Source: Tubulanus polymorphus (taxonomy: Eukaryota > Nemertea > Palaeonemertea > Tubulaniformes > Tubulanidae). Taken from it: 64,000 bases of DNA. Numbering within the stretch: position 1 is the stretch's first letter; each line of letters opens with the position of its first letter. The notes below the pieces were generated by a model, which was not told where the DNA came from, ran no database searches, and saw nothing but the letters and a program-made list of their open reading frames with translations. The stretch spans positions 22,090,650 through 22,154,649 of the forward strand of contig NC_134026.1 in assembly GCF_964204645.1 (NCBI RefSeq), read 5' to 3'. Shown here one piece after another: positions 21,069 through 53,800 of this stretch. The position numbers and the translations under genes were made by a program.

Positions 21069-21187
21069 GGGAACTAATAGAATATGATCTTCGGTCTAAC
21101 TGCAGTTAAGATGTACACTACTTAGAGCCTAGAGGCCTAACGGGTTGTAGGCTTTTAAAACGCTATCCAACTGTCACCCACGTCCAC

Positions 21188-22910
21188 GTCCACCACTAGT
21201 CAGTAACCTGACTGTGGTTTAGTTTCACGATCGGATATTTTCACAAACCACAGTCAGGAATGGGAAGGTCATTTTTGTATGAAATCTTCGTCAGCCAATT
21301 TGACTGACGAGTAATTTGCCTGGCATTTCATTGTCTCTTAAGATATCTGTCTCATTTTTGTTGTAATCGACGCACAACAGATTCGTAGTTTGTCTGATAC
21401 CTATAACACCTCACCTGACGATCTTAATCCATGTGCAAATCGGCCGTAAAGTGAGAGTAAATTTCCGTCCAGTCAACAGCTGCCATTTTGAAAATTACTG
21501 GAGGTGCTGGCACCTTAGTTAGTTACCTAATCGTTGGTGGTAAGCTTTTTATAATCGGATGGGCTTATACCAACGTTAGGGATGACAAGGACCAAAACAC
21601 GGTTGAAAAAAGTAACACTTCAAAAATATACTTTCTATTCACTTCAGTCCACAATTAATGGCTTAATTCACAAACTAACACAGGTACCTTTCGAAATAAT
21701 CCAATTTTATGTATGTTTCGAGTGATTAATCAACATTATTTTGAGAAATTAATTAATTTCTCCACAAATTTCGCCATTGGCCGCCATTTCTCTGTATTGC
21801 ACATGTGGCATGATAAGACAAGGGGACCTACAAGGATTTATATAAAACTTCCAAGACGAAACGACAATTTTTATTTTTGATGGTTTTCCAACTTTTATTT
21901 CAAGTCTTCGTGTTTTCCATAATAAATAATGAAATAATAAATTTCTGGTAAAAGAAAAATGTGAATAAAAATTGATTTTTTAATTTTTTTAAATTTCGTC
22001 GTTTCGCTTTGTTAGTTTGTGCTGTTGTCCTGGCCTCAGTCCACAGGTGCCAGCACCTCCAGTAATTTTCAAAATGGCAGCTGTTGACTGGACGGAAATT
22101 TACTCTCACTTTACGGCCGATTTGCACATGGATTAAGATCGTCAGGTGAGGTGTTATAGGTATCAGACAAACTACGAATCTGTTGTGCGTCGATTACAAC
22201 AAAAATGAGACAGATATCTTAAGAGACAATGAAATGCTAGGCAAATTACTCGTCAGTCAAATTGGCTGACGAAGATTTCATACAAAAATGACCTTCCCAT
22301 TCCTGACTGTGGTTTGTGAAAATATCCGATCGTGAAACTAAACCACAGTCAGGTTACTGACTACTGGCACCTGTGGACTGAGGCCAGGACAACAGCACAA
22401 ACTAACAAAGCGAAACGACGAAATTTAAAAAAATTAAAAAATCAACACTTATTCACATTTTTCTTTTACCAGAAATTTATTATTTCATTATTTATTATGG
22501 AAAACACGAAGACTTGAAATAAAAGTTGGAAAACCATCAAAAATAAAAATTGTCGTTTCGTCTTGGAAGTTTTATATAAATCCTTGTAGGTCCCCTTGTC
22601 TTATCATGCCACATGTGCAATACAGAGAAATGGCGGCCAATGGCGAAATTTGTGGAGAAATTAATTAATTTCTCAAAATAATGTTGATTAATCACTCGAA
22701 ACATACATAAAATTGGATTATTTCGAAAGGTACCTGTGTTAGTTTGTGAATTAAGCCATTAATTGTGGACTGAAGTGAATAGAAAGTATATTTTTGAAGT
22801 GTTACTTTTTTCAACCGTGTTTTGGTCCTTGTCATCCCTAACGTTGGTATAAGCCCATCCGATTATAAAAAGCTTACCACCAACGATTAGGTAACTAACT
22901 AGTCCACCAC
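21188..22910. mobile_element. 848-bp non-autonomous DNA transposon (outer copy) with 9-bp target duplication
   Basis: The outer copy runs from 21197 to 22901, interrupted by a second copy. It is flanked by the direct repeat GTCCACCAC at 21188-21196 and 22902-22910. Its ends are imperfect inverted repeats: TAGTCAGTAACC on the left, and TAGTTAGTTACC as the reverse complement of the right end. Without the inner copy and its duplicated target it is 848 bp long. Its left end carries a perfect 14-bp subterminal hairpin (CCTGACTGTGGTTT at 21207-21220 pairing with 21245-21258). No transposase is encoded. The open frames inside are short, lysine-rich and shared by both copies, so they are not evidence of a gene. 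A 9-bp duplication would fit a Mutator-like element; this class call is inference. Confidence 0.9.
21516..22363 (-). mobile_element. Second copy of the same 848-bp transposon, inserted inverted inside the first
   Basis: The inner copy is in the opposite orientation and also exactly 848 bp. It begins TAGTTAGTTACC and ends GGTTACTGACTA. It is flanked by its own 9-bp duplication CTGGCACCT at 21507-21515 and 22364-22372. That target is a unique sequence of the outer element, present once inside the inner copy as CTGGCACCTG in reverse complement. The two copies differ at only a few visible positions, for example around 21970 versus 22445, implying recent insertion. The arrangement gives two pairs of long inverted repeats of about 0.3 and 0.5 kb. 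Confidence 0.92.
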
Positions 22911-50368: not shown

Positions 50369-50892
50369 CGTCTAGAAAAAAGGTAGCATTCAGTTAATTT
50401 TGCTGCAGGACAGCCATATATAGTGAAAGGTCAGTTTCCAGAGCAGTGGTTTAGTTTCACGACTTCAAATTTCTCAGAATCAAAATAGAGCCTTCCTTAT
50501 TAATCAAACCAACAACAACAATGTCTCAAATGACAATAGGTTATTCAACTGTAGGGGTCCAGGGGAGAAAGAAAACAACACATCCTAGCAAGCCTGGGCA
50601 TTCTTTGACTAACATTTGGCTTACATTAAAGGGGATTTCTAGATGAATTTTCCACAGAATCGTCATTAAATCATCTTAATTTGGTGAATATTTTTGAGCC
50701 TCATTGACAATAAGTAGGTCAATATTGTAGCTCCACAAAATAGGAACATTCGGAACTGAAAGGCTGACATTAGATTAGGATGTTTTCGGAGCCACCCGTT
50801 TTTCTTGACACTAGCAATTATTTCAAGGTCGTTGATCTATTCGTCTGTGGTGGCGAAATTGAAATGTCAAATTGATGCTGTCAAAAGTGGAG
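50369..50892. promoter_or_regulatory. Divergent oxsm/hfm1 intergenic region
   Basis: 524 bp separate the start codons of two genes transcribed away from each other, suggesting a shared promoter. No TATA box or other specific site was recognised. Confidence 0.4.
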
Positions 50893-53800
50893 ATGGATGA
50901 ATTAAGTCCTTTGGGGTTTTTAGATGATGTATCTATATCGCAGCCACCTCTATCGCAATCCCAAAGACAGAACAATTGGAAGAAAAGGTAAAATTGTTAA
51001 TATTTTTGTTACTTTTTACAGCTATTCGATCGCGACCTTGCTTCTATTCTTCCTTGTGACCAACAAATTTACCGAGATTAACTGATACCAAAAACATGGA
51101 CGGTAAGACACCCGCTGTCTTCAGTAACCTATCTGTGGTTTAGTCTCACAATCGGATATTTTCACAAACTATAGTTAGTATAAGCCCTTCCGATTATAAA
51201 AGCTTAACCACCAAAAGATTAGGTAACTAAAACTAAGACTGCTGTTTAGTTTTTCCTTGCTTGATTAGTGTTGAAGCAGGTGATGTAAGGGATACCCATA
51301 TGATGGTTCTAAACTGCAGTCACTCCAACTTGAAGCATTGTTTGCTGATCTCAAAAACCGTTTTAGAATTTTTTGAAAAGTTTTTTCTTTCTCTTCCAAT
51401 TTTGAAAGGCCAACTCAAACGAATAGATTTATAGCTCCTCCATTGTCAATGACTGTTCGACCACCAGCAGTTGAGAAAAATGATGGTAATGACTACATTT
51501 CCAATGACGTTCCTGAGCCGTCATTCAAGCTCCCTTTACCACCACCTATACAAACACCGCAACGAATAATTAGAAATCATTCATCCTTGAATTCGACTCC
51601 ACGAGGTTTACTGGTATTTGATGACGCTGCTAGCCAGCACCTTACCACACCCCTTGTGGCGCAGTCATCTAATGAATTTCCAGTTCAAGTTGGTAAGATC
51701 AACAATGAGATTGCAGTTCCATCTTTGAAACCGATACGTTTCATTCAATTTACTCGAGATCTAATACCTTTCAGAACCGACTCGGCGAGCTATGATAAGC
51801 AATCTACGATCAACCTCAGAAATATGTATCTTTTATTCTTTTGCAAAAATATTTGAACCACTAGTAATGGGTAAAAAGGCTGCAAAAGGAAAAGGCTGAA
51901 ATTTTTCAATACATAGAATATGGTCGTTCTTTGGTAAACTAAATAACTTTAACTCGCTGGTTTGACAGGTGAACAGTTTCGTGGTATATTCAACTTTCCA
52001 TATTTCAACATTGTCCAGTCAAAAGTTTTTGATGATGTAAGTGCATCCGAAATTCCCAGTACTTATTCTCCATCTAATCTGGTTTAATTCAACTCCAATT
52101 TGATTGTGAACTGAATGAATTTCGTTGATCCTAAATAGTCTGGATTTGGAATCTTGGTAAATGTCATAATTTGATACTTATGAGTAACAGGTGATGTACA
52201 CTGATCGGTCATTGGTGGTTTGTGCTCCAACTGGATCTGGTAAAACTGCAGTGTTTGAGTTGGCTATTGTGCGTCTGATGGTGAAATTTCAACATGAAAC
52301 AACACCGTTCAAAGTTGTTTATAGTTGAGTATGAGAAGTGTACATCGGTTACGAAATATCTAACAGTTTTGAAAATGAACTCAAAATTGATTGGATTTAG
52401 TCGATCATTGTTCATTTTAAGATATAAGAACAAAGACTATTTCCATATCAATCAAAATGTTCTTCATCATCGGAAGTTTAATCGAATTGTTTTCATTATT
52501 CAGTGGCACCCCTGAAAGCCCTGTGTAGTGAACGTTTCGAAGACTGGCGAATGAAATTTGGCACGCTCGGCCTGAAATGCATGGAACTCACTGGCGACAC
52601 TCAACTAGACGACCTTTTCGAACTTCAATCAGTGAACATAATCCTAACCACACCTGTATGTTTTAAAGTGCTTCTCATTCAGTACTTTAAAACTCTCTGC
52701 TCTAGATAGACAGAACTTTTAAAGATTCACTGATTCTCTATTCAGTACATTTCCGGTAGTTTTGGCAATATGATGACGATTGCAATATTTTATTCATAAA
52801 TAGGAGAAATGGGACAGCATGACAAGAAGATGGAAAGATAATCAGTCGTTATTGCAACAAGTGAAATTGTTTCTCGTCGATGAGGTACGGTGAACTACTT
52901 GGAATTGACTGGAATGAAATTTTTTAATTTTGGAACCTCACGTATTTTTCTATGCAGATACATACGTTGAATGATAATGCAAGAGGAGCGACAGTTGAAG
53001 CGGTCATCAGCCGGATGAAGACTGTCCAAACAGCAGTGAACCGATTGAATAATTCGAAACAGTCTCTGGACAGCACAATGAGATTTCTAGCTGTATCGGC
53101 GACAATACCTAATGTTGAGGATGTAAGTATTTTACCAAAATCTTCTATGGAGGCAAAAATTATTGAAAATTATCTCTAGTAAGCCCCCGACCTTATCTTC
53201 AGATATCAGCTTGGTTCGGATCAGAAAGTTCACCAGCCATCCATTATAGGTGAATAGTTTAAGAATGATTATCTTGAATCGCGGTCGTCTTAGATTTTTT
53301 TTTGAAAATCTGCATTTTGATTGTCTGTATTTTTTCTGACGCAGTCTCGATGACAGCTTTCGTCCGGTGAAACTGCGTAAAGTTGTACTCGGATACGAGT
53401 ATTCACAGAATTCGTCTGAATTCAAGTTCGACTTGTTTCTCAGTTATAAACTAGCCGGCATCATCGAAACATACTCCGATAAGAAACCAACTTTGGTCGT
53501 AAGTCGATCGCATTCATAACTTATAATAAAACCTGCATCAACTAGACAATCTGGAGACGAAGAAATTCATCAAGTTTGATGAGAATGAACTACAAACTCT
53601 AAATGTCTGAATTGGATCAAATCAAAATCTGTATTCAATGGTCCCTTCCCTATACTTTCAAAAGATATACATGTAGTATCAAGATTAGTCGATCTTTAAT
53701 AACTTTAACCTCTAAAAGATTCTAACTTAAAACTATAGCATCAGCCCCTGAATTGTTCATACGGTTTCGGATATCATCTTTAAAAATATTGCCCCGTCAC

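Follow-up and report, generated by a model that had tools for sequence, protein, structure and literature searches.

The locus at positions 21188-22910 of the window, as we call the entire 64,000-nucleotide stretch of Tubulanus polymorphus DNA that was analysed, is a transposon nest in which one 848-bp unit has inserted, in inverted orientation, into another copy of the same unit. The nest arose as an ordinary accident in a transposon family that was active recently, and lies within ordinary transposon biology. We consider it highly probable that the family is a non-autonomous, MITE-like cut-and-paste DNA transposon of 848 bp that depends for its movement on a DDE-type transposase acting in trans and making 9-bp staggered cuts.

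The outer unit lies on the forward strand and consists of a 5' part (unit positions 1-319, at 21197-21515) and a 3' part assigned by copy comparison (unit positions 320-848, at 22373-22901; 319 + 529 = 848 bp). The two parts are split by the inner unit, which occupies 21516-22363 on the reverse strand, is likewise 848 bp long and differs from the outer unit by four substitutions (positions 126, 393, 394 and 395). A sequence check located a perfect 9-bp target-site duplication (TSD) around each unit. GTCCACCAC flanks the outer unit at 21188-21196 and 22902-22910, and CTGGCACCT flanks the inner unit at 21507-21515, within the outer unit, and at 22364-22372, all on the forward strand. The nest also contains two pairs of inverted arms, one of 538 nt at 99% identity (21516-22053 and 22364-22901) and the other of 334 nt at 98% identity (21182-21515 and 22045-22378). 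The original prediction had described this arrangement, and it held to the base in the coordinates, the 848/848 lengths, the inverted orientation and the terminal motifs of the pair; both perfect duplications and the proposed 0.3- and 0.5-kb inverted repeats were likewise present.

Near-identical inverted copies that adjoin each other could also have arisen by inverted duplication, gene conversion or an assembly artefact instead of insertion, an explanation that we regard as practically untenable. When the inner unit and one copy of CTGGCACCT were deleted in silico, the remaining 848 bp matched without a single difference the copies L010, L019 and L024, which lie on three further chromosomes and provide the inner insertion with an exact paralogous empty site. 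This restoration of the outer unit to a sequence shared with other copies shows that the nest arose by insertion, not by inverted duplication. Two separate perfect duplications sitting exactly at the element ends argue against the same explanation, as does the presence of a second nest in the genome. A genome-wide search for the outer flanks of the nest did not find a second copy of the outer site. The second self-nest (L013, G000:C10:3513917-3516500) has an inner unit that is inserted at unit position 787 and runs in direct orientation, with GCATGAGGC as the outer and TGTCATCCC as the inner TSD. Without its inner unit, the outer copy is 848 bp long and has two differences from the unit. Here a copy of the CCTGTCTG subtype sits within a CCTGACTG copy, which shows that the former subtype was still mobile after that outer copy had landed. 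A 106-bp derivative is located approximately 270 bp beyond this nest. At C2:5944420-5947521, the coordinates of the ends, taken alone, suggest a third, inverted nest. Two proven nests and a suggestive third might be read as a preference of the transposon for its own copies as targets, and we judge this to be very unlikely. A rough calculation (approximately 1000 insertions x 235 x 848 bp in 267.8 Mb) gave approximately 0.7 expected self-hits, so a preference for own copies is not needed; two to three nests against that expectation represent at most a weak excess, and the insertion positions in the unit differ between the two nests (319 and 787). Nests are thus not unique in this genome, and their count is roughly as chance allows.

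The family was assessed across the 267.8-Mb assembly (77 contigs). With 301 bp of the locus as query, 1375 first-look candidates were obtained, 40 were scored, and 37 loci were retrieved. All 37 contained the full unit, with lengths of 844-854 bp and 98-100% identity to the outer unit. Their TSDs were perfect over 9 bp at 34 loci and measured 10 bp at two, and the remaining one was cut off at the edge; among distinct copy sequences, with the inner unit included, 43 of 47 had a perfect 9-bp TSD. A search with an internal 45-mer, allowing up to 3 mismatches, counted at least 235 copies genome-wide compared to 0 for the reversed control, and the end pattern TAGTYAGTWACCTRA had 1062 matches compared to 12 for its reversed-pattern control, which together exclude chance. 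The further full copies and 9-bp duplications that had been anticipated were therefore found, and boundaries or duplication lengths that differed as a rule were looked for and not seen. Median divergence of the retrieved copies from the consensus was approximately 0.6%, a value that overstates the youth of the whole family since these copies were mostly top matches. Three loci were 100% identical to the outer unit, and such identity indicates that activity was recent, as had been proposed. The longest open reading frame of the unit encodes 97 amino acids, and none of the unit frames tested had a Pfam match. The unit is therefore a DNA transposon that is non-coding and non-autonomous and was active recently. 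The family has terminal inverted repeats (TIRs), fixed-length TSDs, no coding capacity, a uniform size and a high copy number, and we classify it as a non-autonomous class II family that behaves like a MITE.

The TIR is 12 bp long (TAGTYAGTWACC) and starts with TAGT, and full copies have the ends TAGTCAGTAACC and TAGTTAGTTACC. At each end the inverted repeat is followed by a hairpin of approximately 52-55 bp, CCTGACTGTGGTTT...AAACCACAGTCAGG at the 5' end and CCTAATCGTTGG...CCAACGTTAGG at the 3' end; folded as single-stranded DNA, both had z values near -5, and no shuffle was as stable. In the outer unit the 5' hairpin is at 21207-21258 on the forward strand (z -5.05, 0 shuffles equally stable) and the 3' hairpin is at 22837-22891 on the reverse strand (z -5.22). 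The inner unit repeats both sequences, with its 3' hairpin at 21526-21580 on the forward strand (z -5.22) and its 5' hairpin at 22302-22353 on the reverse strand. The 5' and 3' ends can be aligned to one another across the loop motif ATCGGAT as far as the closing motif YAGGRATG. Derivatives of 99-182 bp consist of almost nothing except the two ends, retaining the TIR together with the greater part of the hairpin. Six of their TSDs were read, and these were perfect over 9 bp in L076, L079, L081 and L085 and had one mismatch in L084 and at L013. Such near-perfect duplications on the derivatives suggest that the ends suffice, and that the outer 60-70 bp or so of each end are probably enough for mobilisation. 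At both ends, the terminal hairpin region is the putative transposase-bound site. One base pair of the 5' hairpin is disrupted in the CCTGTCTG subtype, which nevertheless remained mobile; the pair is therefore dispensable. The window holds a diverged small derivative at 51121-51230 (unit 4-52 at 92% and unit 790-845 at 90%) and a further fragment of the family at 50430-50462. In the literature searched, the terminal 12-mers matched only two papers, one dealing with lettuce markers and the other with porcine cells, neither of which bears on this family.

Insertion sites of the family are biased. Among 43 distinct sites, the base at -3 to the TSD was C in 30 (p ~6e-13), the base at +3 after the TSD was G in 26 (p ~4e-9), and A or T was favoured at -2 and +2. 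The last duplicated base was C in 23 of the 43 (p ~4e-7). The resulting consensus, C(A/T)N-N9-N(A/T)G, is symmetric, and the self-complementarity of single sites was not above chance (1.77 of 7 pairs compared to 1.84 expected).

Under the favoured explanation, a transposase supplied in trans would bind the terminal hairpin region at both ends of the unit, and its 9-bp stagger would leave a 9-bp, rarely 10-bp, TSD at the biased target. The inner copy would have landed at random, the already present outer copy being one among 235 or more available self-targets. The enzyme would most likely be a Mutator-like (MULE) or another 9-bp-type transposase. Weighing against this explanation, the loci searched yielded no element that carries a transposase between such ends, and mobilisation in trans is to that extent an inference. 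The nest shows that the family was still mobile after the outer copy had landed. With its defined ends, target bias and exact empty sites, this clean, recently active, non-autonomous family can be used for tracing the missing transposase and for dating insertions.

An autonomous partner had been expected in the genome; none was found among the sampled long end pairs, the listed end positions and the transposase loci. When the coordinates of MULE, Merlin and P matches were compared by hand with the end positions listed, no transposase was located inside a proper end pair. The 7.46 kb between proper ends at C1:14857396-14864853 are a unit copy (1-563 and 586-848) interrupted by a BEL/Pao-type LTR retrotransposon with long open frames (L078, G000:C1:14857100-14865150), a call made by eye from gag- and pol-like frames. 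Partner searches with patterns that kept the end and required a non-unit base deeper inside yielded two long end pairs, at C2:13863937-13876912 and C21:129080-140896 (13.0 and 11.8 kb), which represent one duplicated insertion site with the TSD GCTAGACGG. Each is an old unit copy of 90-93% identity, interrupted at position 400 by approximately 11 kb of repeats, minisatellite among them, and no transposase frame was present in the parts of the C21 insert that were read (somewhat over half of its approximately 11 kb). The small contig C21 (G000:C21:129060-140920) repeats the C2 locus (G000:C2:13863917-13876932), with a shared insertion and shared flanks and 1.2 kb less inside; it is either a haplotig or a segmental duplication. 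A further candidate, L108 (C1:17506094), has 93 bp of the 3' end followed by differing sequence, and another abundant repeat starts approximately 190 bp inside the end.

As far as its length goes, a 9-bp TSD would fit both the MULE and the Merlin superfamilies. The original prediction had named a Mutator-like transposase solely from this length, and of the 56 MULE matches in the genome none was found linked to the family's ends. That the family is mobilised by a MULE transposase of its own genome is possible, if somewhat doubtful. The family's duplications agree with those of MULEs (8-11 bp, mostly 9), and 9-bp TSDs are listed for many MULE groups (PMC6446971). MULE transposases are also present, some as near-identical multicopy open frames (L046-L048, 471 aa, >99.6% identical). 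Against this, none of 30 retrieved MULE loci had TAGTYAGTWACC ends at the element boundaries or a similar unit within 1.5 kb, and none was enclosed by the listed non-unit ends when coordinates were compared by hand. The five MULE copies with visible boundaries start with GGGGTCATCC, GGGAGCG or CGGAACGG, and their TSDs are 8 bp in four and 9 bp in one. The family's TIR is only 12 bp, compared to 13 bp to 1193 bp, mostly with a G/C start, in arthropod MULEs (PMC13359780). Long TIRs of tens to hundreds of bp, usually with a G/C start, are absent from the family, a feature that is not strictly diagnostic, as some MULEs have no TIRs. Mobilisation by a Merlin (IS1016/IS1595-type) transposase we consider unlikely. 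Merlin elements generate 8-9-bp TSDs, into which the 848-bp family fits, and the genome contains 43 PF12762 matches, some intact and multicopy; however, no such match was seen within an end pair when coordinates were compared with the end positions listed, and described Merlin ends start with GG. The P superfamily does not fit on duplication length, its TSDs being 7-8 bp and those of the family 9 bp, and none of 20 PF21787 matches was linked to the ends on comparison with the positions listed. There is a slim chance that the TAGTYAGTWACC ends, the ATCGGAT-loop hairpin and the biased 9-bp-stagger target are the trace of an undescribed transposase lineage. If so, the 848-bp family and its tiny derivatives would be that lineage's visible trace.

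Several MULE loci merit description in their own right. One group (L053, L054, L059, L056 and L058) comprises elements of approximately 2.6-2.9 kb whose terminal repeats resemble minisatellites (CCCACTAGTCCGGGGG and variants), with 8- or 9-bp TSDs and 97-99.7% identity between copies; in L053 a 444-aa frame that encodes FLYWCH and MULE domains is still intact. This group was probably recently active. L046 and L047 (both C5) and L048 (C12) share a MULE region of SWIM type that contains an open frame of 471 aa, and are at least 99.66% identical over the 3.28 kb read, with element ends outside that stretch. In the MULE frame of L060, a weak OTU-protease-like match (below the cut-off) lies upstream of the FLYWCH and MULE domains.

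Like MITEs, the 848-bp family is short and non-coding, with TIRs, a uniform length, many near-identical copies and fixed-length TSDs, and it has given rise to still shorter derivatives built from the ends. At 848 bp it is long for a MITE, however, and each of its ends combines a 12-bp TIR with an adjoining hairpin. Merlin elements share the 8-9-bp TSDs and have transposases in this genome, yet no linkage was seen between the TAGTYAGTWACC ends and a Merlin transposase. Muta1 of Aedes aegypti has 145-bp TIRs with subterminal tandem repeats, 8- or 9-bp TSDs and no apparent target preference (PMC5225508). The non-autonomous MULEs derived from Muta1 resemble the 848-bp family in their 8-9-bp TSDs and in their many derivatives with only the ends in common (PMC5225508), whereas the family has a 12-bp TIR, almost exclusively 9-bp TSDs and a biased target. 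Nested insertions are well documented, among them those in plant MULEs (PMC3903597) and self-insertions of artificial transposons (PMC4744444). As a transposon inside a transposon, the nest described here differs from these in nothing of principle; what is particular is that both partners are one and the same 848-bp unit.
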